Below are positions 11,039 to 62,139 of a stretch of 64,000 bases of DNA, piece after piece. A program made the translations under genes and the position numbers. Position 1 is the first letter of the stretch; every line of letters starts with the position of its first letter. The stretch lies in NCBI GenBank assembly GCA_947175335.1, contig CAMWMF010000009.1:1-64000 (forward strand), given 5' to 3'. Below the pieces are notes generated by a model. It did no database searches. It was not told the DNA's origin and was given only the letters and a program-made list of their open reading frames with translations. Source of the stretch: an uncultured Clostridia bacterium. GTDB taxonomy: Bacteria > Bacillota > Clostridia > Christensenellales > Pumilibacteraceae.

Positions 11039-11045
11039 GTTTTCG

Positions 11046-11134
11046 ATGCAGGGGCGCAACCGCAGTTGCCGAGATGTCATTGTGTCATGACGGTCCCTTT
11101 GAACCTGTGAGTTAGTACTCGCGTAGGGAGCCGT
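11046..11134 (+). promoter_or_regulatory. TPP (Thi-box) riboswitch
   Basis: The conserved aptamer core is readable: GGGGCGC, then CCGAGA in the pyrimidine-sensing arm, a variable stem GTCAT...ATGAC, CCCTTTGAACCTG, a variable hairpin and GCGTAGGGAG. This is the thiamine pyrophosphate aptamer. A terminator hairpin lies 20 bases further on. The segment CCGTCCGTAA at 11131-11140 is fully complementary to TTACGGACGG at 11198-11207, which abuts the SD of the downstream gene, so both early termination and SD occlusion are possible outputs. Confidence 0.93.
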
Positions 11135-11152
11135 CCGTAAATCATGGCTATG

Positions 11153-11191
11153 TGCGCTTGAACTAATCGAGGTTCAAGCGCATTTTGTTTT
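11153..11191 (+). terminator. Riboswitch-controlled intrinsic terminator
   Basis: Stem TGCGCTTGAAC / GTTCAAGCGCA (11 perfect pairs, 8-base loop) followed by TTTTGTTTT, inside the leader between aptamer and start codon. Confidence 0.85.
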
Positions 11192-11216
11192 GTAATTTTA
11201 CGGACGGGAGGAAGTC

Positions 11217-12464
11217 ATGTTTAAAGAAATCAAAAACTACTTTGCCAATTTCAGCGACGCGACAAACACTTGCCGCACTATCGCGCTGTGGGTGACGATT
11301 GCGCTGCTTGTCGCGTTTGTCATTTCGCGCTTGTACATAGTGGTAGCGCGAAAAAAGCAGGCGTACGACGAAGGCGCATTAACGGCTGCAAGCAAGATGA
11401 TAAACGGCGCGTGGATAGTGATTGCGCTCACGGCGGCGGTATGCTTTATAGTCACGTTTACTGCATGCTATTTTGTTGACGTCGCTCACGGTAAGGACTC
11501 GTTATTTCCCATACTGTTCTATCCGTTGCTTGTGTTTGTGCTGGCTGTTGTCGCAAGCGCGATAACGCTTTTTGTCAAACCCAACAAGATTGCAAAAATA
11601 GTGTGCGCCGCAGTTTGCGGTTGTGCGCTTGTTGCCGTAATCGTGTGTATGATAGTATACTATACGAGCGGGCAAGCGGTTGAAAACAATTGGATGGACG
11701 TATTGAGCAATATCGGATTGTATTTGAGCGCGGTCATATTGGCGGCTGTTATGATTGTTGGGGCAATCTTTTTGGACAGAAAAAGCAAGCCTATGGACAC
11801 GCGCACAATCACTTACGCGGCGGTATGCGTCGCACTGTCCTTTGCGCTCAGCTACGTACGGTTGTTTAAAATGCCGATGGGCGGAAGCATAACCTTTGCT
11901 TCGATGTTGCCGCTTATGCTGTTCGCGTTTATGTTCGGCAGCCGCAAGGGGGTTGTCGTCGGCGTAATTTACGGTTTGCTTCAAGCAATACAAGACCCGT
12001 GGATTATTCACCCCGCGCAGTTCGCGCTCGATTATCTTGTAGCATTCGGCGGTATAGGACTTACCGGCTGTATGCGTGAGCTGGGAGCGTTCAAAGGAAA
12101 TATGCGCGCACAGTTTGCGGTGGGCGCAATAGTTGCGTGTGCGTTGCGGTTTTTGGCGCACTACTTTGCCGGCGTGTTCGCGTTCGGTGAGGCAGGACTT
12201 AATTACGTTAAATACGGCAGCGCGTTTGCCAGCGCATATTTCTATTCGTTCGTCTATCAGTGCTTGTATCTTATTCCCGAGCTGGCGATAGTTATTGTCG
12301 CGGCAATGCTGGTGCTTACCTCGTCGTCCTTCCGCAGGCAGATAGAAATTCGCATTGCGGCAGGAGCAAAGGACGGCAAGCAAGCGGCGGCAATTCAATC
12401 GTCGCCCGAAGCCGACGAACAATCAAACGCAACCGTCGCGCAAACAGGTGACAAACAACAATAA
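11217..12464 (+). CDS. thiT: ThiT-like thiamine transporter (ECF S-component) with N-terminal membrane extension
   Basis: Substrate-binding membrane subunit of an energy-coupling factor transporter for thiamine. The part from about residue 195 to 375 is ThiT-like: TITYAAVCVALSFALSYV, MGGSITFASMLPLMLF, GVIYGLLQAIQDPWIIHPAQFALDYLVAF and a closing helix pair. Control by a TPP riboswitch supports the substrate. ThiT proteins are normally near 190 residues; this one is 415, with roughly 190 extra N-terminal residues carrying about four or five hydrophobic segments (near 20-43, 65-88, 97-118, 124-146, 155-180) and a polar C-terminal tail. The shared energizing components (EcfA, EcfA', EcfT) are not in the window. 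SD GGGAGGAAG ends 2 bases before the ATG. Confidence 0.88.
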   Translation: MFKEIKNYFANFSDATNTCRTIALWVTIALLVAFVISRLYIVVARKKQAYDEGALTAASKMINGAWIVIALTAAVCFIVTFTACYFVDVAHGKDSLFPILFYPLLVFVLAVVASAITLFVKPNKIAKIVCAAVCGCALVAVIVCMIVYYTSGQAVENNWMDVLSNIGLYLSAVILAAVMIVGAIFLDRKSKPMDTRTITYAAVCVALSFALSYVRLFKMPMGGSITFASMLPLMLFAFMFGSRKGVVVGVIYGLLQAIQDPWIIHPAQFALDYLVAFGGIGLTGCMRELGAFKGNMRAQFAVGAIVACALRFLAHYFAGVFAFGEAGLNYVKYGSAFASAYFYSFVYQCLYLIPELAIVIVAAMLVLTSSSFRRQIEIRIAAGAKDGKQAAAIQSSPEADEQSNATVAQTGDKQQ

Positions 12465-32300: not shown

Positions 32301-35300
32301 TGCCGGCTGCGACAACATACAGTCGATCAGCCTTACGGGCAACACCAAGTACTATATAGAGGACAGCGTTATCTACAACGCCGCCAAGACCGAGCTTATG
32401 CTGTATCCCGCCAACAAAAATGCAGAAAGCTACGAGGTTTTGGAAGGCGTAACGACAATCGATGCCGGAGCGTTTGCGGGTAACACATATTTAAAGAGCG
32501 TTACGGTTCCCAACACCGTGGCGACTATCGGCGCGGGCGCGTTCTACGGTTGCACCAACCTGCAAACGGCGTACTTCACGCCCGACAACGCAAACGCTGC
32601 AAGCAAGCTCGACGTGGGCGGCACTTCGGATACGCAAGGGGTTTTCCAAGGGTGTTCGAGCCTTAAAACGGTCAACCTGCCCGAGCGCACGACCCGTCTC
32701 GGTTTGAACGCTTTTGCGGACTGCGCCGAGCTTACCGAGCTTACTATTCACAAGGACGCGCAATTACAGGCTATAAACGCAGGCGTGTTTTCCAATGCGG
32801 GCGGCGGTACGCTTACTCTGCCCGTAGCGGTAAGTACTATAGGCGAGAACGCGTTTACAGGCAGCTTGTTTACGCAGGTGGTAATGACTAACGTTACGAC
32901 CATAAACAAGAACGCGTTTAACGGCAGCGGTATAACCTCTGTGATATTGCCCGCTACGGTCGCTACGATAGGCGAGTCTGCGTTTGCCAACTGCGCGGAA
33001 CTGACGTCGGTCGAGATTAAGCTTAACACTAACAAAAATCTGTCGATAACGACTACTACCACTACCACACAAAACGATACAAACGGCTTAAAAGGTACAT
33101 TCGCGAACTGTCCCAAGCTGAAAACGGCAACAATCGCCACCAACGGGGTGCTGCCGTACCACATGTTCTACAAGTGCAACGCGCTCGAGGAGCTGACGAT
33201 AAAGGGCAGCGGATCCATCCAAGGTTATTTGTGCGGCACAGGCACGACTACGACAGTTTATTATCCCAACACCACTACCGCCGGCAGCACTTCGAGTGCG
33301 AGCGTTCAGATTGGCATACAAGGTCTTAAAAAGGTAGCTATCGATAATACGATTACTTCGATAGGTAGCTATGCTTTTGTCGGTTGCTCCAACCTCGGCA
33401 GCCATAACCCCGAAACCTGCGTCGACGAGAATTGCGCAGGGGACTCGGCTCACGGCTTTACAATCGTCGACACGGGTAAAGACGACGCCCTTAAAACGAT
33501 CGGTACTTATGCGTTCCAATCCACGGCAATCAAGTCGTTTGTCATACCGTCGTCCGTTACTTCTTTAGGCAGCTATGCGTTTAGATTTAATACGGCGCTT
33601 ACGTCGGTCACCATACCTACTAAATCGTTTGCGGAAATACCCTCGTATGAGTTTTTCGGCTGCACGTCGCTTTCTACGGTAACGTTTGTCGACAAGGGAG
33701 TCAATGCAGAGCGCAAGCTTGTCACAATAGCCAGCAGTGCGTTCTTCAACTGCACGAACTTAAAGTCGTTCGACTTGACCGGCTTTACCTCTCTCAAGGA
33801 TTACGCGTTTGAATATTCCGGCTTAATCTCGATCGTAATTCCCGATACGATTACGAGCTCAACGAATGATACTGCGACGTATTATATATTTGCGAACTGC
33901 AAGGATTTGGAGAGCGTGACTATTCCGACCAATGCGTCCAAGTTTATCGGCAAGTGTACGTTCCAAAACTGCACGAAGTTAGATACGGTTACTTTTACGG
34001 GTGACGGCTCCGTGCTTACGACTATCGGCACTCAAGCCTTTGAGGGTTGCGAAAAGCTTACCAATATAATCTTACCCGAAGGTCTTACCACGATAAACGC
34101 CAATGCGTTCCTTAACAGCGGAATTAAGAATATCAAGCTGTCGAGCACGATAGAAACCATAGCGTCTACGGCATTCTTAGGCTGCAAACAGCTGAATGTA
34201 ACGGTTGCCGACGGCAACGCGTCATTCACCGTCAGCTCGGATATGAAGTCGCTGTTGAGTAAGGACGGCAAAACGCTCGTGCAGTATATCGGAAACGACA
34301 CGCAGTATACAATTCCCGAAGGCGTTGAGGTGATAGGCGACTATGCGTTCCAGAACTGCGAGAGTTTGGAAAAGATAACCTTTACAGATACGGTAAAGAG
34401 CATCGGTCAGTACGCATTCAGATACTGCACGGCGCTCGACGAGCTTACGTTGCCCGACCTCGAAACTTTAGGTCAGTATGCCTTTGCAAACTCCGGCGTT
34501 ACCGAAGTTACTATCGCGGGCTTGCCCGACGCTGTGGGAAATTATATATTCTCCGAGTGCGAAAACCTTGAAACGGTCACCTTTACCGGCGGCGCAAAGG
34601 CGATAGGGCAGTACATGTTCAACAAAGACGCAAGCCTTAAAACGATAGTGTTTGCCAACGATATCGAAACTATCGGCACAAACGCATTTGCCGCTTGCGC
34701 ACAACTCGGCAACTTCACGATCCCCGCATCTGTTAAGACGATTAACGACGGTGCGTTTATGGATTGCACAACAATAACGTCGGTCAACATTCCGGCGACG
34801 GTAGAGTCGTTGGGCAAGGGTGCGTTTGCCGGTTGCACGTCGCTCGAAACAGTTACGTTTGCTCAGAGCTCCGATAAGCTCGTTATAATCAGCGGCACGG
34901 CGGCGACGGCAAACAGCAACACGCGTGGTACGTTCGCTTTCTGCACGTCGCTCGAATCGATAAACCTTTCGACGCGTCCTATCTATAACTCCGCGACCGC
35001 CACGACGATTACTGTTCCCAACCACATGTTTAACGGCTGCACCGCGCTTTCTACTGTTACGCTCCATAGCAGCACCGCCGAGATAGGCAGTAACTCGTTC
35101 CAAAACTGCCTTTCCTTGGGCAGGGTAGCGTTGCCGTCCACTTTAACGGTGATAAACAGCTATGCGTTTAACAACACCGCTTTGAGCGTAATGACTTTGC
35201 CCGAAGGCATGCTTACCATCGGTACTTATGCGTTTATGGACTGCAAGCTGCTCGAAAGCATAACAATACCGGGCACGGTCAAGACGATAAACTCCGCCGC

Positions 35301-45986: not shown

Positions 45987-48704
45987 ATGAAAAAGAAACT
46001 GCATATTATAACACTGATATTGTTTATTATATTAGGTATGGGAGTCTTGGCGGCTTGTTCGGGCGCGCCCAGACTTGAACGCCCGAAAAACCTTTCGATC
46101 AACGACAACTACGTGCTCACTTGGGATACTGTTGCCGGTTCTCGCGGGTATATCGTAAACGTCGCAGGCAAAGATAACACCGTGCGGCGCAATTCGATGT
46201 CGCTGTCCGAGTTGGATCCGGGTGACTACACCGTCCAAGTCTGCGCGATAGGCGACGGCGAAACGTCCAATAACTCTGATTGGAGCGTTATCACGTTCAC
46301 AAAGTATTACGAAAACGGTTTGCGCTACAAGCTGATAAACGGCGACAGTGCGTACGAGGTGTCCGGTGCCGGAAGCGCGTCCGGTAACGTGACGGTAGAA
46401 AATTCGTATCGCGGCAAGCCTGTCGTTAGGATTGGCGACCGTGCGTTTTATAACAACGCGACGATAAAAAACATCACTGTCAGCGACGGTATTACCGAAA
46501 TCGGCGGCTTCGCGTTCTACAACTGCACGTTTTTGGAAAGCATAACGTTTCCCGAGGGGTTGCAGTCGATAGGCGAACAGGCGTTCCAAAGCTGTCGCAA
46601 CCTTACCGAACTGACGCTTCCTAACAGCCTGACTACGGTCGGCAAGCTAGCGTTCAGCTATTGTCGCAGTCTTACGACAATTAATTTCGGCACAGGCTTG
46701 AAGGATATACCCGAAAGCATGTTCGCAACCTGCAGCACATTGAAAGAGGTAAATATTTCCGACGCGGTGCAGACTATCGGCAAACAGGCGTTTTACAACT
46801 GTGCTAACTTGACAAAGTTAAAGCTTGGTAACGGCGTAAAAACGATAGGCGAGGAAGCATTTAACAAGTGCGCAGCGCTTGCCGACATCGATTTCGGCAG
46901 CAGCTTGGAGACTATTTCGGTAAACGCGTTTAATTCGTGCGCGGAGCTCACGGCGATTAAGCTTCCCGCCAGTCTCGTTTCGATAGGCACGCAGGCGTTT
47001 TACAGCTGCTCTAAGCTCGTCGACATTGATTTGAACGACGAGCTCAAAAGCATAGGCTATGGCGCGTTTAACGGTACGTCCGCTTGGAGAGACAGTGAAA
47101 CTAATCTAATTATCGTAGATAAATGGGTAGTCGACGTAAAAAACAGAACGATTGAACAGCTCGAGATCCCCGAAGATATTGTTGGCATAGGCGACAAAGC
47201 GTTCCAATACGCCCGCGGTTTCTCGTCCGTTAGCATACCCGACAACGTAAAATATATCGGCAACAATGCATTTTCGTCCTGCAACAACCTAACGTCCGTC
47301 ACGTTCGGTAGCGGTGTTAATACGATAGGCGACTACGCGTTTGCCTACGACGAGTATCTAATGGTCGCAGCCTTGGGTGAAGAGGTCGAGACAATCGGTA
47401 ACTATGCGTTCCTTTATTGCTCGCGTTTGCAAAGATGCAATATACCGGAAAGCGTCACGCGTGTAGGAACTTATGCGTTTTACAAGACGCAGATTTGGGA
47501 ATCGGCGGGCAGTGTTGTGTACGTCGATAAATGGCTGGTCGGTTGCAAGCTCCAGCAACAGAGTTTCATTACCGTCGAGGAAGGTACAGTAGGTATAAGC
47601 GACTACGCATTTTACGCCACGCCGGTCGCAGGCGTAACGCTACCCTCGTCGCTCAAAACCTTAGGGTGGGCAGCGTTCTATAAATGCAACAATCTGGCGG
47701 GAATTATGTTCCCCGAAGACAGTGAAGTGGACGAGATTAAGGACTTTACTTTCTTCCAATGCTCGATGCTTAGAATTGTTAATTTGTCCAACAATATAAA
47801 ACGCATAGGCGACCGTGCGTTCTACGGCTGCCGAATAATGTCCAACATTGTTATTCCCGACAGTGTTACCGAAATTGCGTCGCGCGCGTTTTACGGTTGC
47901 CACAGCCTCGAAACAATCGATTTGGGCAAGGGCACAGAGGCAATGACCATAGGCGATCGTGCATTCTACAACTGTGCCGCGCTTACCGCGCTTACTATTC
48001 CCGACCGCGTAACGTCTATCGATTACAGCGCGTTTTACGGCTGTGCGTCGCTCAAATCGCTCACGATAGGCAACGGACTTACCGAAATTCCATTTAAAGC
48101 ATTCTACGGCTGCGGCGCACTCGAATCGCTTGCAATTCCGCAAAATATAAGCGTTATCGGACCGTATGCGTTTTATAATTGCGCCGCTTTGGCCACCCTT
48201 ACGCTCGGCGATTCCGTAAATACTATTGATAAGTACGCCTTCTACGGTTGCGGCGCGCTTGAAAGCCTTGTCATTCCCGACAGCGTCACGTCGATAGGTA
48301 GATATGCGTTCCGCGGTTGCACGTTGCTCACAAGCGTCAGCATCGGCAGCAGCGTGACCTATATCGGCAGCCACGTATTTTACGGCAATTTCGATTTGAC
48401 GATTTATTGTGAAGCCGTCGAACAGTATAAAAACTGGGAAGCGCGTTGGAACTCGTTATACCGTCCCGTTGTGTGGCGCAGCGTATTGAGTCCCGATAAG
48501 AGTTACGTCGTATCTGTCACAAAAGCCGATAACTCTGTAAGCAACGACAACACAAAGAACACCGTTGCCCCGCCCACGCGCGCGGGATATACGTTTGAGG
48601 GTTGGGCGTTGCAGGCCGGTTCTGACGAAATAGCCTACACTGCCGATAATATATCGTCCGCACCCAACGGTACCACGCTGTACGCGGTGTGGAAAGCGGA
48701 ATAA
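45987..48704 (+). CDS. BspA-type leucine-rich-repeat lipoprotein, end of the MoxR operon
   Basis: A 905-residue lipoprotein. Start at ATG 45987 because ACGGAGGT precedes it; a longer in-frame start is not supported. Lipobox LAAC (Cys about 24) is followed by a short Fn3-like unit (about 30-100) and about 28 TpLRR repeats (about 130-800) of the form IGxxAFYxCxxLxxLxIPDxVxxI. It ends with an InlB-type unit APPTRAGYTFEGWALQAG ... TLYAVW. The repeats are close in style to those of the giant protein. It is the last gene before a clear terminator, 41 bases after the VWA protein, so it is co-expressed with MoxR and the VWA proteins and is a candidate client or ligand. Confidence 0.9.
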   Translation: MKKKLHIITLILFIILGMGVLAACSGAPRLERPKNLSINDNYVLTWDTVAGSRGYIVNVAGKDNTVRRNSMSLSELDPGDYTVQVCAIGDGETSNNSDWSVITFTKYYENGLRYKLINGDSAYEVSGAGSASGNVTVENSYRGKPVVRIGDRAFYNNATIKNITVSDGITEIGGFAFYNCTFLESITFPEGLQSIGEQAFQSCRNLTELTLPNSLTTVGKLAFSYCRSLTTINFGTGLKDIPESMFATCSTLKEVNISDAVQTIGKQAFYNCANLTKLKLGNGVKTIGEEAFNKCAALADIDFGSSLETISVNAFNSCAELTAIKLPASLVSIGTQAFYSCSKLVDIDLNDELKSIGYGAFNGTSAWRDSETNLIIVDKWVVDVKNRTIEQLEIPEDIVGIGDKAFQYARGFSSVSIPDNVKYIGNNAFSSCNNLTSVTFGSGVNTIGDYAFAYDEYLMVAALGEEVETIGNYAFLYCSRLQRCNIPESVTRVGTYAFYKTQIWESAGSVVYVDKWLVGCKLQQQSFITVEEGTVGISDYAFYATPVAGVTLPSSLKTLGWAAFYKCNNLAGIMFPEDSEVDEIKDFTFFQCSMLRIVNLSNNIKRIGDRAFYGCRIMSNIVIPDSVTEIASRAFYGCHSLETIDLGKGTEAMTIGDRAFYNCAALTALTIPDRVTSIDYSAFYGCASLKSLTIGNGLTEIPFKAFYGCGALESLAIPQNISVIGPYAFYNCAALATLTLGDSVNTIDKYAFYGCGALESLVIPDSVTSIGRYAFRGCTLLTSVSIGSSVTYIGSHVFYGNFDLTIYCEAVEQYKNWEARWNSLYRPVVWRSVLSPDKSYVVSVTKADNSVSNDNTKNTVAPPTRAGYTFEGWALQAGSDEIAYTADNISSAPNGTTLYAVWKAE

Positions 48705-48782
48705 TGCGGCGGGCAGCTAATAGAAATAGACAAGATATTAGGAATAATAGATTGTTGAAGTAAGATTAAAATCAAGCAGATT

Positions 48783-48811
48783 GGGAGCGTGTAAGTGCGC
48801 TCCCTTTTTTG
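48783..48811 (+). terminator. Terminator of the MoxR operon
   Basis: GGGAGCG / CGCTCCC with 8-base loop followed by TTTTTTGTG. Confidence 0.9.
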
Positions 48812-48864
48812 TGCGGGGATATCGGAAGTTTTTATTTAAACTCGGCGCAACTCCCATTATTTGT

Positions 48865-48893
48865 TTGACATAACGTACAAATTAGAGTATAAT
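48865..48893 (+). promoter_or_regulatory. Consensus promoter of the third giant lipoprotein
   Basis: TTGACA at 48865-48870, 17-base spacer, TATAAT at 48888-48893. Confidence 0.85.
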
Positions 48894-48903
48894 AAATAAA
48901 CCC

Positions 48904-48946
48904 ATATCGGCTTTGGTTTTACAAAGGTGTCCGCCAAAGCCGATAT
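48904..48946 (+). promoter_or_regulatory. Leader hairpin at the transcription start, type B
   Basis: ATATCGGCTTTGG / CCAAAGCCGATAT, 13 perfect pairs with a 17-base loop containing ACAAAGGTGTCCG, a sequence close to the ACAAAGGCGTCG of the two type A leaders. There is no T-run after the stem, so it is not a simple terminator. The remainder of the 338-base gap shows no ORF. Confidence 0.6.
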
Positions 48947-49042
48947 TGTGTTGAAAAAAATTATTCGATCTCGTTCGCTCGTCGGACGACGGTTGTGCTC
49001 GACACACAAACAGAGCGGACACGGAAATTTACAGAGGTGTTT

Positions 49043-52000
49043 ATGAAAAAACTTCACAGAGTGGTATTGGCAGCGTTGTTCGCCGTTATGCTCGCGCTTG
49101 GCGCGTTTGGCTTTGCGGCATGCTCCAACGCAAACGACAATGCCTCTAAATCGGAATACACCATGACCTTTATGATCGGGACTATGATGTACGATTCGGT
49201 CACGACGACTGAGGGAAGCTCTTATAAAATGAAAGAAGAAGCTCCCTATCGAGTCAATAACGTTTTTGAGGGCTGGAGTCGAACCGAAAACGGACCGGTC
49301 GAGGACTTGCCCGCAACAATGCCGTCCGAGAACCGTACGTACTATGCTGTGTTTTCGGCACAGTTTGCTTTGAGGCTTAACGCCGGAGCGGGCGCTATTC
49401 CCGAAGATCAAAAAACGATGTCGGTCAAGGTCGGCGACGATCTGTATACCAAGCTTTCGGATATTACGCCCACGATTTCGGACGGTGATGCGACTTTTGT
49501 TGGCTGGTATTTGAACGGCAACGTAAAGATCGAGCAGGGCGCTGACGTGAAAATGCCCGGCAACAACGTCGAGGTCGTCGCCAAGTACGAGGTCTCTTAT
49601 ACGGTCAACGTTTATAAAGAGCTCGATCTCAATTCGAATGATTATCCCTCCACCCCTGTGACGATTACCGGCAAGGGTACGGTCGGCGAAAAATTATCCG
49701 GTCTGCCCGCATATACAGGGTTCCATTACGACACCGATCATGACAATACGGCGCTCACCGAAACGCTCGGCAAGAACAGCGCGCAAAACGTGCTGTCGGT
49801 GTATTATGAGTACATACCTTACGACGCAGATTTCAGCGTTAACCTTCCCGCCGGCGTCGCATTCGAAGGCGATGCCCAAACGATGGCCTGCGGTTATCAA
49901 CTGCCCAACGAAGCTCCCGCGTGCAAGTACACCGCCGACGGCTACCGTTTCGTAGGCTGGGCTACCACTGCCGACGGTGACGTAGCGTACTACCCGGGCG
50001 ACGAGTTCTCTATCGAACGCTCGACCATTTTCTATGCGAAGTGGGTAAAAGGTTTAGTCGATCTTACCGGACGTTCTTCCGACCGCGTTTACATTATGGG
50101 CAAGGTCGAGGATCCGACGGTTACCGTCGCGTATCTCGAACGCGTCGGCTTAAAGGATATTCTCGGCACTTACGATAAGGCAACGCATGTTTTCGAGTTC
50201 AAGAGCGTTCTTAACAAGGACAGTGACGACGTATTGTTGCGCGGCATTGCCGATACGACGCGTAGCATGTATACGTATCTCAATACGGACAACGCTACCG
50301 TTTATACTCTGCTCGACGCCGAAGGCGATAACGTTCCTACCATTACTCTTAACGATAACGGCAACGCCCAATACGTCAACGCCGCCGGCGATACGCAAAC
50401 CGGCAAGTACGTCGGCGATACGGACGGCTCTTTGCTGTTTGTTGTCGACGGCGACACGAAGTTTGCTTTCCGTTTGGTCATGTCCGATACCGGCATTGCA
50501 AGCTATGAGGTGCGCGGCGAGGAATACGGTTTGTGGTATACCATGTCGCAAGCCGGTGTAGTGAGAACCTCGCAACAGCTCTTGCTTGACGGCTACGGCG
50601 CTGCCCGAATGGCAGTTTACGATAATTCCGGCAGCAGCGCGGGTTATAAATATTTCGGCGGTCGGTACATTCTGAATACGGGAGAGGGTGCGTACGACGG
50701 CGACGACGGAGTGGAGATAGTTGTACAGATTTTTAACAGCTCGCTCAATTATCGCTTTTACACATATTTGCTTTCTCAGGCTACGGTCCAAACGACCTCG
50801 GGCGTTCAAAAGGTAAACGTATTTACCGAACGCTTTAAAGCGACGCTATACGGCGCGCCCGCGGACGGCGAAACGCTCGACACCGAAACCGCCGACAAGA
50901 TTGAGCTTTCGGGCTACGGCATGCTCGACGGCAGCGCGACCTATACAAAGGGTAGCACGACCGTTACCGGCAAATACGTTTACGACAGTACGTACGGCAC
51001 TATTACGATTATCCCCGCGACCGGCGATAATCTTGTGTTCGAGATACAGGGTACTTACGGCGAAGGTGACAATGCGGTGCCGGTGTTCGAGCTTCAAGGC
51101 GCCGAATGCGGAACGTACGGCGTATCCAACCTGTTGTCGAACGCCTATTACACGATGGCGGTTTATAACAACAATACCGCGGCGCTTTACTTCCGTCTTT
51201 CCATTCCCGATCAGTTCTACGGCACTGTCAGCAACGAGTACGTCATGGTGTTAGCCGGCGAGTACGAGCTGATAAAAGCGGGTTCTAACGGCGACGTTAC
51301 CGGCAATCTTTACGAGTTCACCGCGCAAATTAATGAATATACTTTGCGGTGGATCAGCGTGTTTGCCAACAGCGGCGTAAACCTTTCGCCGTGCTTGAAA
51401 TTTAAATTCCAGTTTGTATACAACAACGGCAAAATCACTTCCATCTCGGTCACACAGGCGAGCGACGCCTTGGAGGGCGCTACGTTCACCTATGACGGCG
51501 TCAAGTACACGCTCGACGGCTACGGCACTGCTGTCAGCCAGGACGACGATAACGTTAAAAAGACTTACAAGTACAGCAACGGCATGTTGACGGTCAACAC
51601 GCCCACTGCGGAAGACGCCAAAGCCACTACGGTGTTCTACGACTATGACGGCGACTCCGATTTTGCTTACATGACAGACAATATCGTTGTAGCCAATTCC
51701 GAACATCTGTTGGCTGTCCGATTCATGTCAGATGGAACTGCCGTACTCTTGCTTTACGTTCAGCAGGACGGGATGCTGATTGCAGCCTATCCGGTCTCGT
51801 TCGGCATTGTTGTGTGGAACGACGACGATAAAACGGCAGGGTCTTTCGTTCGCGACGAACAAGTTGTTTTCAGCTATGTTTACAGTTCGCTCGCCGTGAC
51901 TTACGAGGAATTCGACTTCTCGATCGTTACCACCACCAATACGAACGATAAAGGCGAAACCGTCACCACCAAGCTCCTCTATATCGATTATGCGGGAACA

Positions 52001-53332
52001 ACCCAACCCACCGACGGCAAGTACGATATACTTAACGCCGCAGGCGACAAGCTTATTCTTGACGTAAATGCGTCAACGGCTAAGTACGTCAAAAAGGGTA
52101 AGGCAGGCGAAAACGACACCGAATATGAAGGCCATTACGTTTACTCCAACGGCAACATTATTCAGTTTGCCGATACTAAGGGTACGCTGTCGCTTACGCT
52201 TAGACTTATCTACACAGACGGCGCAATTTCCTCGTTTGAGACGGTAGGTTATGAAGTCGGCTATGCGGTATCTTACGACGACGCAAGGAACTATTTGTAT
52301 CTCTCCGGCAATACCGCAGGTACGGACAAAGTGTACAGCGGTACATACTACGTATACGACGCTGAGACGGGAAGCAACGTTCCGTACGAAGGCACGTACA
52401 GAGCAAATCAGTACGGCGTAGAAGGCTACGACTTTACCTATACGGTAGGCGGCGAGCAGGTAACGTTTACGTTCAATCTGTACCGTGAACAAAGAGGCTT
52501 TACGTTCTTCCGCACCTATCGTCCCACAGCACAATATACCGTTTACACGATGACGATGTCCAATCTCGGCAACCCCACGCCGGTTGCTCTGATAGGCGGC
52601 GGCGGATACAGCAATTATGTATTGCAGCTTTCCCAGACTAACAGTGCTACGGGTAATTTTGAAAAGTTCAACGACGAGAGCGACATTTACGTGTTCACGA
52701 TGTCGTCGAACGGTTCAAAGCTCTATTTCCAGCGTATTGAAGCCGGCGTTCTGTTCTATCTCGATGGCACGTATATCCCCGAGATTGACGGCGTGTTCGA
52801 GCTTCCCGATCCTATCGAGCTCACTGTCGCAGGCACGCCCGGCACTATGGAGACCCCCGCAGTTCCCGAACATACGGCGAGCATTTCCTCGGTGAGATTT
52901 ACCGGCTACGTTATTGCCGAAATGTACTATACCTACAACGGCGAGGAAAAAACCATTCAAGCTTTCTATGTACAAGTCGCGTCGAGCACCTACATGCTTC
53001 TCGACAATAAAGGCAACATGTTGGCTCGCGTTCGTTTGATGTACCGCACCAATCAGGACGGCACGCGAGAGTACTTCGCACAGACTTGCGACATGGATTA
53101 CTACGGCTTGTTCGTGAGCAACGAGAATACCGTCGTTAACCTCAACGGGTTCGATTCCGCGGTATATGTCGACAGCTACGGCAGAGTGCACTCAGGTTCG
53201 TATACTATGGACGACGGCGTTTTGTGCATAAGCTATATCGACAATTATACCGTTGTCAAAGTGTACTTGACTGTCGACACGGAAAAAGGAACGTTCACGC
53301 TCGTTCCCGCTCCGACGGCCGGCAACGACTGA
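49043..53332 (+). CDS. Giant lipoprotein with InlB-type and G-Y-G beta repeats (1,429 residues)
   Basis: Start at ATG 49043 behind AGAGGTG. Lipobox FAAC (Cys about 27). Residues about 35-340 hold four InlB-B-like units (VFEGWSRTENG; FVGWYLNGN; YRFVGWATTADGD ... TIFYAKW). The remaining 1,080 residues are built of repeats of about 90-120 residues in which a segment like LDGYGxAxYxDNxGxxxxGxY recurs (LLLDGYGAARMAVYDNSG; IELSGYGMLDGSATY; YTLDGYGTAVSQDDD; NLNGFDSAVYVDSYG), each followed by short beta strands ending GKYxYxxGxxxI. I do not know a named domain for this unit. No wall anchor at the end. Likely a surface adhesion or binding protein; it follows the MoxR operon but has its own promoter. 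Confidence 0.8.
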   Translation: MKKLHRVVLAALFAVMLALGAFGFAACSNANDNASKSEYTMTFMIGTMMYDSVTTTEGSSYKMKEEAPYRVNNVFEGWSRTENGPVEDLPATMPSENRTYYAVFSAQFALRLNAGAGAIPEDQKTMSVKVGDDLYTKLSDITPTISDGDATFVGWYLNGNVKIEQGADVKMPGNNVEVVAKYEVSYTVNVYKELDLNSNDYPSTPVTITGKGTVGEKLSGLPAYTGFHYDTDHDNTALTETLGKNSAQNVLSVYYEYIPYDADFSVNLPAGVAFEGDAQTMACGYQLPNEAPACKYTADGYRFVGWATTADGDVAYYPGDEFSIERSTIFYAKWVKGLVDLTGRSSDRVYIMGKVEDPTVTVAYLERVGLKDILGTYDKATHVFEFKSVLNKDSDDVLLRGIADTTRSMYTYLNTDNATVYTLLDAEGDNVPTITLNDNGNAQYVNAAGDTQTGKYVGDTDGSLLFVVDGDTKFAFRLVMSDTGIASYEVRGEEYGLWYTMSQAGVVRTSQQLLLDGYGAARMAVYDNSGSSAGYKYFGGRYILNTGEGAYDGDDGVEIVVQIFNSSLNYRFYTYLLSQATVQTTSGVQKVNVFTERFKATLYGAPADGETLDTETADKIELSGYGMLDGSATYTKGSTTVTGKYVYDSTYGTITIIPATGDNLVFEIQGTYGEGDNAVPVFELQGAECGTYGVSNLLSNAYYTMAVYNNNTAALYFRLSIPDQFYGTVSNEYVMVLAGEYELIKAGSNGDVTGNLYEFTAQINEYTLRWISVFANSGVNLSPCLKFKFQFVYNNGKITSISVTQASDALEGATFTYDGVKYTLDGYGTAVSQDDDNVKKTYKYSNGMLTVNTPTAEDAKATTVFYDYDGDSDFAYMTDNIVVANSEHLLAVRFMSDGTAVLLLYVQQDGMLIAAYPVSFGIVVWNDDDKTAGSFVRDEQVVFSYVYSSLAVTYEEFDFSIVTTTNTNDKGETVTTKLLYIDYAGTTQPTDGKYDILNAAGDKLILDVNASTAKYVKKGKAGENDTEYEGHYVYSNGNIIQFADTKGTLSLTLRLIYTDGAISSFETVGYEVGYAVSYDDARNYLYLSGNTAGTDKVYSGTYYVYDAETGSNVPYEGTYRANQYGVEGYDFTYTVGGEQVTFTFNLYREQRGFTFFRTYRPTAQYTVYTMTMSNLGNPTPVALIGGGGYSNYVLQLSQTNSATGNFEKFNDESDIYVFTMSSNGSKLYFQRIEAGVLFYLDGTYIPEIDGVFELPDPIELTVAGTPGTMETPAVPEHTASISSVRFTGYVIAEMYYTYNGEEKTIQAFYVQVASSTYMLLDNKGNMLARVRLMYRTNQDGTREYFAQTCDMDYYGLFVSNENTVVNLNGFDSAVYVDSYGRVHSGSYTMDDGVLCISYIDNYTVVKVYLTVDTEKGTFTLVPAPTAGND

Positions 53333-53617: not shown

Positions 53618-53944
53618 TTGAAACCGATACGCAGACAATTTATAGACCGTAAAAAGACGGGGCGCAAGCTGCAAATGCTCCGCGAGGATAACATCGAACT
53701 TAGGCGGCAGGTTTGCGGTGCGCTCAAACATGACGATTACAATTGCATGGGCGATTGCGCTGCCTGCGAATTCGAAATGGATAACCACATCAGCCGTAAA
53801 GAGTTGGCCGAGGTTTTCGGCGTTTCGGAAAGCGTAATATTCAACTGGGAAAACGGCAGGACTGTTGTCGATTACGAAAACCTGCTTTTTTACTGTCAGC
53901 TGGCGCAAGTAACTTTAAACGATATAGTAGTTTTTACCGATTAA
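53618..53944 (+). CDS. XRE-family regulator with CX3CX2C cluster
   Basis: A 108-residue regulator started from TTG 53618: AAGGGGTG lies 6 bases upstream, and the only in-frame ATG before it (53582) is cut by a stop. A basic N-terminal helix (residues 1-40) precedes NCMGDCAACEFEMDNH, a CX3CX2C arrangement at about 45-52 that could bind metal or sense redox state. The HTH follows: ISRKELAEVFGVSESVIFNWENGRTVVDYENLLFYCQLAQ (about 60-99), with a typical helix 2-turn-helix 3. It probably controls its own tandem promoter and perhaps the SGNH hydrolase gene 5 bases downstream. Confidence 0.75.
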   Translation: MKPIRRQFIDRKKTGRKLQMLREDNIELRRQVCGALKHDDYNCMGDCAACEFEMDNHISRKELAEVFGVSESVIFNWENGRTVVDYENLLFYCQLAQVTLNDIVVFTD

Positions 53945-53949: not shown

Positions 53950-54618
53950 ATGAAAAAATATAATGTTTCGATTATAGGAGATTCCATTTCCACATATTTC
54001 GGGTTTACCGATTTCGGCTATCCCGTTTTTTATACTGCCGAGCTAGCGAAAGAAAACGGGCTCGAAAGCGTAGACGATATGTGGTGGAAGCGCGTTATGG
54101 ATTGCATAGGCGGGCAGCTGTGCGTTAACAACTCGTACTCGGGCAGCCTTGTGACGGGCACGGGCGAGTCGGCAGCCTGCTCTAAAGAACGCTGCGCAAG
54201 GCTGGCCAACGAAAGCGCTCCCGACATAGTGCTTATTTATATCGGAACCAACGACAGGGGCTGGGCGGTGCCTGTCGGCGACGAAGACGACTGCGGAACA
54301 AACACTTTTTACGGCGCGTACCGCACCATGCTCAGGCAAGTCAAGGACAATTATCCTCAAGCGAGAATAGTTTGCGGAACGTTGCTTATGGCATACCGCG
54401 AGGGCTCGGGCGAGAGCAAGCACCGAGACAAGCTGCCGTTTTTTGTTCGGGATATCAACGACGCGATAAAGCTTGCGGCCGAAAAGGAGTGCTGCTCTGT
54501 CGCGGACATAGCGGCATATAACGAGCAGTATGAGTCGCTTGATTACTGCCACCCGACCAAGGAAGGGCACAAGACCATAGCCGAGCTGTGGTTAAAAGCG
54601 ATGAGCTTCGCAAAATAG
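53950..54618 (+). CDS. SGNH/GDSL-family hydrolase
   Basis: A 222-residue cytoplasmic esterase-like hydrolase. Block I VSIIGDSISTYFG carries the nucleophile Ser (about 12), block III IYIGTNDRGW carries the Asn (about 99), and block V YCHPTKEGHKTIAELW carries the Asp/His region (the His before Pro at about 203). The oxyanion Gly is in SGSLVTGTG. Substrates in the family range from acylated sugars to peptides and lipids; none can be picked here. It starts 5 bases after the regulator's stop without a clear SD, so coupling to the XRE gene is likely. A strong terminator follows. Confidence 0.82.
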   Translation: MKKYNVSIIGDSISTYFGFTDFGYPVFYTAELAKENGLESVDDMWWKRVMDCIGGQLCVNNSYSGSLVTGTGESAACSKERCARLANESAPDIVLIYIGTNDRGWAVPVGDEDDCGTNTFYGAYRTMLRQVKDNYPQARIVCGTLLMAYREGSGESKHRDKLPFFVRDINDAIKLAAEKECCSVADIAAYNEQYESLDYCHPTKEGHKTIAELWLKAMSFAK

Positions 54619-54731: not shown

Positions 54732-54797
54732 TATACCGATTAACGGTATAAATCGAAGCGGATTGAAATTGCAACGCAAAAACGCTTGATTTATAAT
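54732..54797 (+). promoter_or_regulatory. Promoter and palindrome before the VirD4-like cassette
   Basis: TTGCAA at 54769-54774, 17-base spacer, TATAAT at 54792-54797. A palindrome TATACCG ATTAA CGGTATA at 54732-54750 ends 18 bases before the -35 box and may be a regulator site. Confidence 0.6.
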
Positions 54798-54867: not shown

Positions 54868-56478
54868 ATGTTTGACTACAACACCGAGCTGGCAATTAAA
54901 GAGCTGTTTTTGCTTCAATACATTCTCGGCGACGCGATAGATACGCATGACGCTTTCGATTTGTTTTGCGAAATTTATTGCGTAGACGAAAGCGAGCAAA
55001 GCGAGATTGTTACGTTGCTCGACAGCCGTGAGCTTAATAACATTCATACGCTTAGCGACTATTATCGGGAGGCGCGGCTGCGTCAATATTTCCGAAACTT
55101 TCGCGGCGGCTACGTCGTCGAGGACGAACGGATAGAGGAGCTGGTCGCAATCAAAGGCGCCGTGTTTGAAAAGGCGCAGGCCGACAAGCTGGTATGTGCC
55201 TACGAAAAATCGTGCGGCAGGGCTTACGACGAGCTTGTCAGGCTTGCCGCCGAGGGCAATGTTTCCGCCAAGCGTGTTCTAGGAATACTGCAAATGGAGG
55301 GAATGTACATAACGCAGGACAACCATGCGGGGCGCGACAACCTGCGCGACGCGGCGGACTGGCTGGACACCCAATCGCTGGCGACGGCTATCTATTACGA
55401 CGAGAACAATCGCCATGAATACTTGGACAAGCTGTACACCGTCACGCAAAAAACCGACTATGCGGCGGTCGTCGAGCAGCTGCAAATACAATACGGTATC
55501 GAAAACTGCAAGGCGTCCGAGTCGGCAAAAATATTGGAAAAGGCGTTTATTATAGGCACTGCCAAGCGCGAAATATGTTCGGCGCAGCATTTGCGCGTTT
55601 TAAGGAGCAATGTGTTGTCGGAAAAGGATAAACGCGCAGTTTTGCTCAGCGGCAACAAGGAGCTTATTCCCGCGGCATGCGCGCTGCCGTTGCAGCTCGA
55701 TCACAAAAAGATTCCGATCAAGGCGGGCGTGGCGGCACCGCTCGATCGCGCGGAGGAGAGCGCGACTGTAATTTCTATGCTTGACAACAACGATTTGCGC
55801 GACCGCGGGTTTTTCCGCTGTCCGTGCATTTGCTCAAATTCGGAATATATTCGCAATGCGTACGCCGATTACATAGCGGATATTTTTGCGGACAGCAACG
55901 TTGTGCAAATAGAAGTTTCGTCGCTGTTGCCCATTGACTTGGACGCTACCGAGAATAACGTGTTTGTGCGTAGCTGTCAGGAAAAGCAGGGCAACGTATA
56001 TATAATAAAGCTGAGCGGCAAGATTGACGAGCGCATTGTCGGCCTTGTAAAGTCGTTTGCACCGAGCAGCGGTAGAAAGACGTTTGCCGTATCCCGATTG
56101 GGCATAAGCGTCGACTTGACCGCCGTGCTGCCGGTATTTGTTTGCGACGGCAAAAACGCACAATTACTTGAAGACAGCGTTGGCATTGTCAAAGCCGCGG
56201 ACGTTACCGATTGCGAAAAGCAGTCCGTATTGGACGATATTCTCGGCAAAAAACAACAAGCGTTTTCGACGGGTGTAATCACTGTGGACGACGCCGCAAA
56301 AAGTATTTTACTCGACTTGCCTATATGCAAAATGGACGGCGTGCTTGACAGTGCCGTTTTGTCGCGGCGCACGGACGGCGAGCCGATATGCTTGACGGCC
56401 GATATCGTCAAGAAATTTATAGGCGATAAAAAGACGGGCGAAACATTCGGTTTTGGAGGTACTCATGCAAAAAAATAG
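54868..56478 (+). CDS. Unrecognised 536-residue protein coupled to the VirD4-like ATPase; possible degenerate AAA+
   Basis: Cytoplasmic, no membrane segment. Residues about 1-110 are helical and acidic. About 115-160 contain a Sel1/TPR-like helical pair (AYDELVRLAAEGNVSAKRVLGILQMEG). From about 310 to 460 the strand/helix order resembles an AAA+ ATPase: CPCICSNSEYIRNAYADYIADIF in the P-loop position, GNVYIIKLSGKIDERI in the Walker B position, LPVFVCDGKNAQLLEDS in the sensor position, and a lid-like helical end. All nucleotide-binding residues are missing, so if the likeness is real it is a pseudo-ATPase. This is fold guessing, not a match. GGAGGG precedes the ATG. The stop lies 14 bases inside the next gene. 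Confidence 0.6.
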   Translation: MFDYNTELAIKELFLLQYILGDAIDTHDAFDLFCEIYCVDESEQSEIVTLLDSRELNNIHTLSDYYREARLRQYFRNFRGGYVVEDERIEELVAIKGAVFEKAQADKLVCAYEKSCGRAYDELVRLAAEGNVSAKRVLGILQMEGMYITQDNHAGRDNLRDAADWLDTQSLATAIYYDENNRHEYLDKLYTVTQKTDYAAVVEQLQIQYGIENCKASESAKILEKAFIIGTAKREICSAQHLRVLRSNVLSEKDKRAVLLSGNKELIPAACALPLQLDHKKIPIKAGVAAPLDRAEESATVISMLDNNDLRDRGFFRCPCICSNSEYIRNAYADYIADIFADSNVVQIEVSSLLPIDLDATENNVFVRSCQEKQGNVYIIKLSGKIDERIVGLVKSFAPSSGRKTFAVSRLGISVDLTAVLPVFVCDGKNAQLLEDSVGIVKAADVTDCEKQSVLDDILGKKQQAFSTGVITVDDAAKSILLDLPICKMDGVLDSAVLSRRTDGEPICLTADIVKKFIGDKKTGETFGFGGTHAKK

Positions 56479-58177
56479 AGACATATTATACGGATACGAG
56501 AACATGCCGCTCATCCGCTACGACAGCGCGGAGGCGAACGTTTTGCCCAATAATATAGCGTATGCGGATTTGGCAAATAACGACGTGGTGGGCGTGTTAA
56601 AGGGTAACCGCTACGTCGACGGCAAGCTGATGCAGCTATATTCCACACAGGAAAACCATGTCGGAGTAATTGCGGCGACAAGGCTGGGTAAGACGTCGTC
56701 CTACGTTATTCCGACGGTGCTGTCTTTTGCTATGCAAAAAACAAAGCGCAGTATGATAATTTCCGATTGCAAGGGCGAGATATACCGCCACACGGCCGCA
56801 ACGCTAAGGCAGGCTGGATATACTGTTAAGCTGATTAACTTCCGCGACTATCAGCACAGCGAGTGCTGGAACCCGCTCATTCCCATATACCGAAAGTATC
56901 AAAAGGCGATGTCGATAGCCGATACCGTCAAAACAATCGCCATAGGCAACGGGCGGTTCGGCTACGAATTTCAGGGCGTTGTTTACAAGAGTCAGCCTGC
57001 ATTGGACAAGGTGTTGAAACGCGTTCAAAAAATGATGGTCGACGACGTGTACAACGATATCGATCAAATCGGCACTACTTTTATAACCACGCAAAAAACG
57101 GACGACCCGTACTGGGAGGACAGTGCGCGCGAGCTGTTAAAGGCGTACCTGATTGCCATGCTCGAAGACTCGCGCAAAAGCAGCAATCCCATTACGGAAG
57201 ACACGTATTCTTTTTCCACTATCATGGAGCTGTCTTCCGATTTGTCCGCGGGCGAGGATAAGTGTTTTAAGGACGGCGGGTATTTTTCCAAACGTCCGCA
57301 TTCCTCCAAGGCGTACAAAATAGTAAATGGGCTTTTGTTCAACAATGCCGGCACGACGGCGGGCTGTATCATTTCGATATTCTATTCTAAAATGGCGGCA
57401 TTCAAGGACGTTGCGCCGCGGGTGATTACCAGCGCGAATTCCTTTGAGGTATCGGAGTTGGTGGAAGGTCCGACCGCCGTGTTTATAGACTACCGCGACG
57501 AGATGAATACTCATTACCAGCTTATAAGCATGTTCGTTCAGGAAGCGTACAGATTTTTGATAGGCTACGCAAACGATAAGCCGACGGGCAAGCTTGACGT
57601 GCCGTTGTACTTTATTTTGGACGAATTCGGCAACTTCCCCAAAATGGGCAATTTCGAAACTGTTATTTCCGCCAGCGGCGGCAGAAACATATTCTTTATT
57701 ATAGTGGTGCAGTCGTATGCGCAGCTGGACAACGTGTACGGCAAGGCCGTTGCCGCAATCATACGCGACAACTTGAATATGCACATTTTTTTCGGCAGCA
57801 ACAACACCGAAACGCTGGACAGCTTTTCCCGCGAGTGCGGAAAGATGACAAGGGTTTCGCCGCTGTCCGCGTTGAACGGAGAAAAGGAGAGCATAAGCAG
57901 TTATCAGCTTGAAACGATTCCCAATGTGCCGGTGAGCATGCTGTCGCACTTCGAGCCGGGCGAGTGCATAATAACGGAGGCTAACTCCGGCTATGTGCTG
58001 TTTTCGCGGCTGGAACGGTACTTCCTTTGCGCCGAATACAAGGATTTGCCCCAAGACGATTGCAAACAGTATAAATGCCCCATCAATCCGTTTGACGAAA
58101 AGTACACCTATACTCCCAAGTCGTCGGGTTCTAGCGGCAGGATAGGACTATTTGACGACTTCAACTTCGATTTTTAA
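56465..58177 (+). CDS. VirD4/TraG-type coupling ATPase, orphan
   Basis: A 570-residue P-loop ATPase of the type IV coupling protein family. Start at ATG 56465 with GGAGGT 4 bases upstream. Walker A is GVIAATRLGKTSSYVIP (about 67-83) and Walker B is YFILDEFGNFPKMG (about 381-394), followed by the family block GGRNIFFIIVVQSYAQLDNVYG (about 402-423) and a late IIRDNLNMHIFFGSNNTETLDSF. The all-alpha domain typical of VirD4 appears between the two motifs. The usual two N-terminal membrane helices are absent. In conjugation these hexamers feed DNA-protein substrates to a channel, but there is no relaxase, VirB4 or other transfer gene nearby. Confidence 0.85.
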   Translation: MQKNRDILYGYENMPLIRYDSAEANVLPNNIAYADLANNDVVGVLKGNRYVDGKLMQLYSTQENHVGVIAATRLGKTSSYVIPTVLSFAMQKTKRSMIISDCKGEIYRHTAATLRQAGYTVKLINFRDYQHSECWNPLIPIYRKYQKAMSIADTVKTIAIGNGRFGYEFQGVVYKSQPALDKVLKRVQKMMVDDVYNDIDQIGTTFITTQKTDDPYWEDSARELLKAYLIAMLEDSRKSSNPITEDTYSFSTIMELSSDLSAGEDKCFKDGGYFSKRPHSSKAYKIVNGLLFNNAGTTAGCIISIFYSKMAAFKDVAPRVITSANSFEVSELVEGPTAVFIDYRDEMNTHYQLISMFVQEAYRFLIGYANDKPTGKLDVPLYFILDEFGNFPKMGNFETVISASGGRNIFFIIVVQSYAQLDNVYGKAVAAIIRDNLNMHIFFGSNNTETLDSFSRECGKMTRVSPLSALNGEKESISSYQLETIPNVPVSMLSHFEPGECIITEANSGYVLFSRLERYFLCAEYKDLPQDDCKQYKCPINPFDEKYTYTPKSSGSSGRIGLFDDFNFDF

Positions 58178-58280
58178 GCGATGCACATATAGCGAGTAGT
58201 GTAAGCTTATAATCACAAACTCCGCGCAACGAGTAATTGTATGCGCGGCAACGGTAACGGTAGTAATAAGGAAGTGTGAC

Positions 58281-58727
58281 ATGAATGTCGATATTGCCGA
58301 AATCAAGCATTACATATTGTCTTTCGAAACGGTCAGCTTTCATATGGTGCAAGAAGCATTTTCGCTGTCGTACGGTCAGGTCAGGGATATCTTTGTCGCG
58401 TTTGAGCAGCAAGGTATAATTGAGTTCGATTCGGGGTTTTCCTACAAAGTACACAAACCCCGCGTCTTGGCATGGCCGCCCGCCCGCAGGCTTGACGACG
58501 TCGACGTAACCGACGTGCTTTTGCTTAGGGCGATATGGAATTGCATTTTAACGGACAATGTTTCCGCGTCGGGCGTTCAGCGCAGTCTATCAATAAGCTA
58601 CGATTCGGCGTACGGGCTGATCGAAAAAATGGACAAGCTCGGCCTTATAGACTACGGTGCGCGCAAGGTGTTGATAACCGCCGATGAATATATAGAAAAG
58701 TTCGGTGCCGCCTTGGGATTGACGTAG
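58281..58727 (+). CDS. Double winged-helix protein, FtsK-gamma-like
   Basis: A 148-residue protein made of two similar helix-turn-helix units. Unit 1 (about 1-55): ILSFETVSFHMVQEAFSLSYGQVRDIFVAFEQQGIIEF. Unit 2 (about 80-135): ILTDNVSASGVQRSLSISYDSAYGLIEKMDKLGLIDYG. Unit 2 closely follows the pattern of the FtsK gamma DNA-reading domain (S-xxLQRxxxIxYxxAxxLIxxLExxGIV). In FtsK this domain recognises KOPS sites and gives direction to DNA pumping. Here it stands free, 103 bases after the VirD4-like ATPase, in the same orientation. AAGGAAG precedes the ATG. A DNA-targeting subunit for that ATPase is a reasonable but untested idea. Confidence 0.7.
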   Translation: MNVDIAEIKHYILSFETVSFHMVQEAFSLSYGQVRDIFVAFEQQGIIEFDSGFSYKVHKPRVLAWPPARRLDDVDVTDVLLLRAIWNCILTDNVSASGVQRSLSISYDSAYGLIEKMDKLGLIDYGARKVLITADEYIEKFGAALGLT

Positions 58728-58811
58728 AATATGCATACGCAGTGAATATTTTGTACGGACTGTGTGCCTATTTGTAAGAGAGCGGAGCGCATGTGTTTTT
58801 TTCAAAACCGC

Positions 58812-61752: not shown

Positions 61753-62139
61753 GGGGATGTATTGGCTTCGACGGCGCGGCTCAGCGACGGAAAGCAGGTG
61801 ATAGGGTCGGCTATCTAAAAACGCAAAAGGCTTTAATTGCCAACAAAAACGAAAACGCCAAAGTCATGAAGTTCGCAGCTCCCGTTGCGGCTCCGGCAAT
61901 GGCATTTGCAGCTTAGTTAAGCTGCACGTTCGACTCTGTATCCTATCGGCAGATGCTCGGGCGTAATGTAGATGGGCTCCCGCGCGGGGGATTGGTCGCA
62001 CCCCGAACGGAACAAGACCTTGCGGCGCACCGCCTTTGTGTATTGCGGCGATGCACCGGACACCAAGCAATAAACTAAACCTGTAGAAGTCCGCGTAACC
62101 CCGCGTCGGAAACCGGTTCAAATCCGGTCATCTCCACCA
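61753..62139 (+). ncRNA. ssrA: Transfer-messenger RNA
   Basis: A one-piece tmRNA of about 387 bases that rescues stalled ribosomes and tags their products. The 5' end GGGGATGTATTGGCTTCGACGG is the common start; the acceptor GGGGATG pairs with CATCTCC, and the 3' end is GGTTCAAATCC (T-arm) then ACCA. The tag frame begins GCC AAC AAA AAC at 61839 and stops with TAG at 61914-61916. It encodes 25 residues starting ANKNENAKVM and ending AMAFAA; the terminal hydrophobic-Ala-Ala is the degron. The tag is longer than the 10-15 residues of common Firmicutes tags. Confidence 0.95.

Follow-up and report, generated by a model that had tools for sequence, protein, structure and literature searches.

What work is left for a VirD4/TraG-type ATPase, a relative of conjugative coupling proteins, that carries no membrane helices? 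The question is raised by three adjoining genes in an uncultured Clostridia bacterium (Christensenellales; Pumilibacteraceae). They lie in the stretch of DNA analyzed here, called the window: positions 1 to 64,000 of contig CAMWMF010000009.1, numbered C9 in a genome of 1.96 Mb. All three are on the forward strand, and encode: ORF1, of 536 residues (54868..56478); the ATPase, of 570 residues (56465..58177, with a possible start ATG at 56465 behind GGAGG); and ORF3, a winged-helix subunit of 148 residues (58281..58727). The first two genes overlap by 14 bases, and a gap of 103 bases precedes the third. An initial annotation, made from the sequence alone, had described this layout, which the coordinates of the open frames bear out, and had proposed a soluble DNA pump with its own loading or targeting subunits, for chromosome handling or defense. 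That proposal caught a conserved, apparently non-conjugative system with a soluble VirD4-type motor, but it overlooked a ClpP gene (32 of 49 loci) and a docking-like tail on ORF1; the pump is half the machine at best.

The cassette is a conserved gene system with four kinds of component: a Sel1-repeat scaffold with a ClpX-like tail (ORF1); a soluble VirD4-type motor; an FtsK-related winged-helix subunit; and, in those 32 loci, its own ClpP. The best inference, with chances about even, is that this unit is a DNA-guided protease.

Conserved Partners

Of 61 genomes searched for being related (its own genome included), 11 contain homologues of ORF1. A scan of genomes of named species returned 20 loci, with the ATPase directly behind ORF1 in every one and ClpP in front in 16. 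These relatives were binned from metagenomes: of the 20, 18 are labeled Clostridia, Clostridiales, or Candidatus Limadaptatus; one is labeled Bacilli, and one Corallococcus. With duplicate copies merged, the comparison covered 49 distinct ORF1 loci, in 45 of which the ATPase gene comes next after ORF1. In the four exceptions (L107 and L109–L111), all from one genus, the ATPase is encoded elsewhere in the genome, and in every case the winged-helix gene comes after it.

Distribution across the order tells the same story. Matches to the ORF1 profile occur in 57 of 396 genomes, 20 of these being short matches to the Sel1 region. At E ≤1e-30, ORF1 is present in 37 of the 396 genomes, from 16 genera and eight families; at E ≤1e-120, the ATPase clade is present in 36. 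All 36 also carry ORF1, and the thirty-seventh ORF1 genome (G399) has a diverged ATPase adjoining ORF1. (These co-occurrence counts take genomes as they are, with no correction for relatedness.) Several genomes hold two copies of the cassette. That ORF1 and the ATPase form one unit is well supported. Conserved neighbors were what the initial annotation had asked for, and they were found: in addition to the ATPase next to ORF1 in 45 of 49 loci, the winged-helix gene is next to the ATPase in 31 of 45.

Beyond the order, samples of 391 genomes from the class and 398 from the phylum (which include the genome itself and some others of its own order) yielded short matches to the Sel1 region but not one full-length ORF1. 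Nor is there a sign of phage or viral origin: a tblastn search of 50,697 phage records gave no match to ORF1 at E up to 0.1, and none of the 19 stretches matched in a pattern scan of viral contigs is a relative.

A Soluble Motor

The ATPase was described initially as a VirD4/TraG-type protein with intact Walker motifs and no N-terminal membrane helices, and it is exactly that. It matches PF02534 (E 1.5e-49) and TraG-D_C (2.7e-25), and scores 238.1 bits against the VirD4-like CD1115 family (NF045973), below the curated cut-off of 250. The Walker A sequence AATRLGKT (56672..56695; invariant G75, K76, and T77) and the Walker B sequence YFILDEFG (57608..57631; invariant D386 and E387) hold in all 17 aligned ATPases, the window protein included.

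Across the 45 cassette ATPases, hydropathy of the best 19-residue segment is at most 0.98, compared to 2.3–2.6 in six of the seven conjugative coupling proteins used for comparison. The seventh, the plasmid-encoded L139 protein (0.69), also lacks a membrane helix, so this absence alone is not diagnostic. The 45 cassette ATPases form a single clade (support 0.99), apart from all seven VirD4/TraG coupling proteins. This soluble ATPase is distinct from an ordinary conjugation protein, and does not look like a conjugation remnant.

Many of these ATPases share an unusual end. An aromatic-x-aromatic motif (for example, NPFDF) falls within the last five residues of 20 of the 45, in comparison to nine of 527 other genes. 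Such an end, in the window at 58160-58174, is a possible second docking tail.

The ClpP Connection

A ClpP gene lies upstream of ORF1 in 32 of the 49 loci: directly in 31, and with one gene between in L113. Two members scanned against Pfam match PF00574 (E 3.3e-66 and 1.5e-59), and the catalytic Ser, His, and Asp are intact in all 31 distinct sequences. The cassette ClpP is about 20 residues shorter than the housekeeping ClpP of the same genome at the amino terminus, the place of the axial loop, a comparison that depends on the start codons we chose. According to passages of PMC9823225, the axial loop matters for ClpX recognition in some ClpPs.

The genome containing the window has two ClpP genes. 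One is the housekeeping gene; the other belongs to a second cassette, on contig C13 (locus L018 of genome G000, 7509-11398), whose ORF1 and ATPase are respectively 31 and 58 percent identical to those in the window.

Other genes of note lie near ClpP-form cassettes. Upstream of one (L025 3104-6733; relatives in L028 and L030) is a gene for a 1,209-residue protein with Clp-type AAA_2, FtsH-type AAA, and M41 peptidase domains. The same locus encodes a DnaJ protein with carboxyl-terminal Sel1 repeats (L025 13842-15536), relatives of which occur in four more loci. Two related genes (class 22) adjoin the cassette in two distant lineages (L113 8609-9583, where it is the gene between ClpP and ORF1, and L026 13705-14400); by Pfam, these apparently encode YgjP-like metallopeptidases (two of 138 neighbor proteins).

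A Putative Scaffold with a Docking-Like Tail

ORF1 was unrecognized at the outset, and family searches agree: there is no match in Pfam or PHROGs, and matches in NCBIfam (0.082) and PADLOC (0.011) are at chance level. A profile built from 21 ORF1 sequences does match Sel1 repeat proteins of known structure over positions 113-191 (best 6ok3, E 1.4e-6). Pfam detects Sel1 in six of the 21 members (best 0.0011), the window ORF1 not among them; there the repeat region is placed at 55204..55440, by transferring positions from the profile (approximately residues 113-191). No fold could be assigned to the carboxyl-terminal half.

At the very end of that half, all 49 ORF1 homologues contain [LIFY]-G-[FY] within the last 26 residues; since the copies share descent, this is evidence of constraint, not of 49 independent events. 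At the same position in other neighbor genes, [LIVFY]GF occurs in ten of 524 and [LIVFY]GFG in none. Most of the ORF1 tails read YGFGG or FGFGG, the latter in the window (56446..56460, residues 527-531); exactly IGFGG is found in one, and LGFGG in three.

Clp ATPases dock into ClpP through loops containing the tripeptide (L/I/V)-G-(F/L), as stated in parts of PMC8745299 and PMC7112952. The ClpX-like protein of the same genome (named by us from PF07724 and its position beside the housekeeping clpP) carries the loop SRIGFGGVL, and a ClpC-like protein (likewise our own name) carries EIGFNA. A profile of 48 ORF1 sequences aligns the tail with the ClpX loop, weakly (E 0.012-0.024, probability 2-3.5 percent). 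The ORF1 tail appears, from its sequence, to resemble the ClpP-docking loop of Clp unfoldases.

The tail also varies with the presence of ClpP. Its first residue is L or I in eight of the 17 loci lacking ClpP, as against one of the 32 with ClpP (Fisher 0.0004, ignoring relatedness). Such a shift is expected if cassettes without their own ClpP use the housekeeping enzyme.

A Probably FtsK-Derived Subunit

The initial annotation saw an FtsK-gamma pattern in the second half of ORF3, and Pfam confirms it: residues 78-124 (58512..58652) match FtsK_gamma (PF09397, E 3.9e-12). The first half is a winged helix common to 31 loci. The winged-helix gene stands directly behind the ATPase gene in 31 of the 45 linked loci, in all four loci where the ATPase is unlinked to ORF1, and in one further locus outside the profile. 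Leave-one-out profiles, from which each sequence and its relatives of at least 50 percent identity were removed (database size set to 1000), recovered the neighbor as top match in 31 of 31 cases (E 1e-6 to 5e-27; 7.3e-20 for the window ORF3). Many members contain a long acidic stretch, absent from that of the window.

One homologue is informative as to ancestry. The L094 protein has both an FtsK motor (4.4e-36), with the Walker A-like sequence GGAERTGKS, and FtsK_gamma (1.1e-20). The L045 homologue has a weak FtsK motor match (2.8e-5), and that of L105 only FtsK-alpha below cut-off (0.0014) plus gamma. Among the ten members of that scan, which took in L105, those of L116, L118, L113, L099, and L104 have no FtsK match above cut-off, and that of L101 only a gamma match below it. 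A Pfam scan of ORF3 itself found no FtsK motor. FtsK-gamma is common to ORF3 and the FtsK/SpoIIIE proteins, whereas in the window the gamma protein is without its motor and the adjoining motor is of VirD4 type. The most economical account has an FtsK-type protein joining the cassette and then probably losing its motor where the VirD4-type motor works.

A DNA-Guided Protease?

To our knowledge, all known energy-dependent bacterial proteases use an AAA+ ring as their motor. The cassette suggests another arrangement, to which we give an equal chance of being right or wrong: a protease that depends on ClpP but draws its power or its position from a VirD4/TraG-type DNA translocase, and not from a classical AAA+ Clp unfoldase. 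Such an enzyme would share with ClpXP and ClpCP an intact-triad ClpP (32 of 49 loci, not beside the window copy) and, on ORF1, an IGFGG-like tail. It would differ in that no Clp/Hsp100-type AAA+ unfoldase was recognized in the core unit, although nine of 49 loci encode AAA+ proteins within 7.5 kb; that its ClpP is shorter at the axial-loop end; and that the motif is carried by the tail of a Sel1 protein instead of an ATPase loop.

From gene content, gene order, co-occurrence, motifs, and the single ATPase clade, we infer docking, DNA tracking, a substrate, and a biological role as follows. The ATPase, judging by its family, would be a soluble ring motor. The winged-helix/FtsK-gamma subunit, from its domains, would bind duplex DNA and load or orient that motor. 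ORF1 would be the scaffold: its Sel1 repeats would bind the motor or the substrate, and its hydrophobic-G-F tail, going by the motif, would dock on the ClpP ring. Moving along DNA, the motor would pull off DNA-bound proteins and hand them to ClpP. The window copy would draw its ClpP ring from the second cassette on C13, or use the housekeeping ClpP. The role of the machine may be either to rid chromosomal DNA of proteins or to counter invaders. The complete version (an energy-dependent protease whose VirD4/TraG-type translocase tracks duplex DNA under FtsK-derived winged-helix subunits, strips proteins from it, and passes them, by way of a Sel1 scaffold with an IGF-like tail, to a ClpP ring of its own) is held more tentatively, with the chances somewhat against it.

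Several observations weigh against a ClpP-dependent machine of this kind. First, 17 of the 49 loci, including that in the window, have no ClpP in the stretch examined. Second, the cassette ClpP differs from housekeeping ClpP at apical-pocket positions: Y is replaced by Q in 28 of 31 sequences, F by other residues in all 31, and L by T or S in 27. We take these positions to be the IGF-binding pocket; with most cassette ClpPs altered there, docking in the canonical manner cannot be assumed. Third, only nine of the 49 ORF1 tails fit (L/I/V)-G-(F/L) strictly, the 49 tails, being related by descent, do not count as independent events, and at least four of the eight loci with L/I tails and no ClpP belong to one genus. 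Fourth, nine of the 49 loci encode, within 7.5 kb, a member of a family of AAA+ proteins (class 7; in L025, the fusion of Clp-type and FtsH-type domains described above), which might serve ClpP there as a conventional partner. Fifth, 14 of the 45 linked loci have no winged-helix gene next door: eight ClpP-form loci of the window's genus, along with L024, L095, L098, L106, L113, and L119 (this last cut by a contig end). Finally, a degenerate AAA+ domain in the carboxyl-terminal half of ORF1, an idea formed by eye, found no support in profile comparisons with the ClpX-, HslU-, and ClpC-like proteins of the same genome, or with Pfam and PDB.

Alternative Readings

The ORF1 tail might bind the ATPase or the winged-helix protein instead of ClpP, leaving ClpP as a separate, loosely associated activity. 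Retention of the tail in the 17 loci without a nearby ClpP fits this alternative, as do the altered pocket positions. Against it stand the close match between the tail and the loop of the genome's own ClpX, the presence of ClpP in 32 of 49 loci, and the change to L/I-GF in loci that show no cassette ClpP. We consider it doubtful.

Equally doubtful, in our estimate, is an anti-invader system in which the motor works with the winged-helix protein to capture foreign DNA, the effector being ClpP. The parallel is with HerA/FtsK capture systems and their nuclease effectors, where a HerA/FtsK-superfamily motor together with fast-evolving winged-helix proteins is a theme, as portions of PMC12839542 describe. 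The cassette shares both features, but has, as far as its genes were scanned, ClpP in place of nucleases, a motor from the VirD4/TraG branch, and a Sel1 scaffold. No nuclease match was found in the three window genes or in the scanned cassette genes of relatives; several recurrent neighbor families are Pfam-negative or unscanned. In a second paper on HerA/FtsK capture (PMC10853773), the whole words ClpP, VirD4, TraG, protease, and Clp do not occur.

Location offers evidence on both sides. Three close relatives without the cassette (L141, L142, and L143) align to the window by blastn only from 58791..58793, a synteny break 64-66 bases behind ORF3. Because these relatives carry other genes upstream of 58791, the window copy occupies a variable slot. 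The slot contents are, in L141, a TIR gene, and in L143, an HNH endonuclease gene with two C5-methylase genes, company that would suit defense. Its scattered occurrence within the order (37 of 396 genomes) and the paired copies in several genomes point the same way. In contrast, the slot in L142, read by eye, contains neither TIR nor methylase genes, only apparently ordinary ones; and eight of the ten ClpP-form loci of the window's genus share one common chromosomal neighborhood. PADLOC found no defense protein above chance level among the three window genes, and among 138 neighbor proteins from 31 loci, in a scan that had no matched control, only scattered matches: in the 25 of 34 families shown, mad3 appears in four, AriA and mad8 in two each, and the others listed in one.

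Improbable, by our reckoning, is a scheme in which the VirD4-like ATPase does the unfolding of proteins and supplies ClpP directly, with DNA not serving as track and the winged-helix subunit only regulating or recruiting substrates. Coupling proteins also handle proteins, and the aromatic-x-aromatic ATPase ends (20 of 45 versus nine of 527) could be a docking tail. Moreover, eight of the 49 loci, all from the window's genus and one context, pair ClpP, ORF1, and ATPase without an adjoining winged-helix gene. Contrary to this idea, the FtsK-gamma-type subunit is kept in 31 of 45 linked and four of four unlinked ATPase loci, and one winged-helix homologue keeps its FtsK DNA motor.

Conjugation was addressed by looking for its other genes. 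No relaxase gene was found near the cassette in a search limited to the family PF03432, whose sole match in the genome falls below cut-off and lies on contig C4. That match adjoins a coupling protein that has membrane helices and is 30 percent identical to the window ATPase, in a region taken for a conjugative element without a scan of each protein. Ten other proteins of the C4 region have no blastp relative (1e-5) in the open frames of 66 loci (duplicates and one flank-only locus included), whereas the C4 coupling protein gave 61 matches in cassette loci in the same search. Neither relaxase nor channel genes were found nearby, in line with the first description, and the initial concern that the ATPase might always lie inside integrative conjugative elements is met by cassettes around which no conjugation genes were found.

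Like type IV coupling proteins (VirD4/TraG, and the CD1115 family), the cassette ATPase has the motor domain, Walker A and B motifs, and TraG-D_C; unlike them, it lacks membrane helices, falls below the CD1115 cut-off, branches as a separate clade without relaxase or channel genes found nearby, and has recurring ORF1, ClpP, and winged-helix partners. A relic of an integrative conjugative element, with the coupling protein left after loss of relaxase and channel, is therefore rejected as most improbable. In its favor are the genuine homology of the ATPase to VirD4/TraG and, in the same genome, a conjugative-looking region whose coupling protein is 30 percent identical. On the other side, 45 ATPases form one membrane-free clade (0.99), the catalytic motifs are invariant in the 17 sequences aligned, the partners recur over 16 genera and eight families, and the ten C4-region proteins have no relatives in cassette loci.

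Genes around the Cassette

Upstream of ORF1 in the window is a forward-strand gene for a helix-turn-helix (HTH) regulator (53618..53944; PF01381, 1.4e-7). Several ClpP-bearing cassettes have a homologous HTH gene upstream. Such homologues (class 5) are near the cassette in 11 of the 49 distinct loci, downstream of it in L094. Between the HTH gene and ORF1, in the slot used by ClpP in other cassettes, the window has a gene for a GDSL hydrolase (53950-54618), a relative of which lies downstream of the cassette in L026.

The promoter that ORF1 and the ATPase were initially said to share has a candidate in the forward-strand site TTGCAA-17-TATAAT (54769..54797; 10 of 12 consensus matches), upstream of ORF1. 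The evidence is weak: this consensus scan yielded ten sites, compared to 5.1 (standard deviation 2.5) in shuffled sequences. The same weak scan found no promoter-like site on the forward strand between the ATPase gene and ORF3.

Downstream, the gene block HAD-HAD-Sir2-TetR is complete in eight of 13 relatives fetched through their Sir2 gene, and also in G012; three of the 13 have Sir2 alone. A tmRNA gene (61753-62139) lies approximately 3 kb downstream of the cassette. (Although integration often occurs at tmRNA genes, here the synteny break lies elsewhere, at 58791.)

Larger genes lie on the other side. Directly upstream of the cassette region, 45987-53332 encodes two large proteins, both with Listeria-Bacteroides repeats and one with BspA-type leucine-rich repeats; further upstream, 26323-37539 is a single open frame of about 3,740 codons. 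Among the 138 neighbor proteins scanned, BspA-type repeats are the commonest of the Pfam families listed (25 of 119), occurring in six proteins.

Implications

Among the titles and opening lines of abstracts listed in searches of the open-licence literature, none describes a system of this kind. A protease built around a DNA-pump ATPase, if true, would join two classes of machine that we had not seen linked. It would also offer a direct route for clearing proteins from DNA: roadblocks, DNA–protein crosslinks, or the proteins of invaders. The gene set is compact enough for transfer to a laboratory strain.

For the order as a whole, a DNA-guided protease would provide a testable function for "orphan" VirD4 genes, which are otherwise easily taken for conjugation debris.

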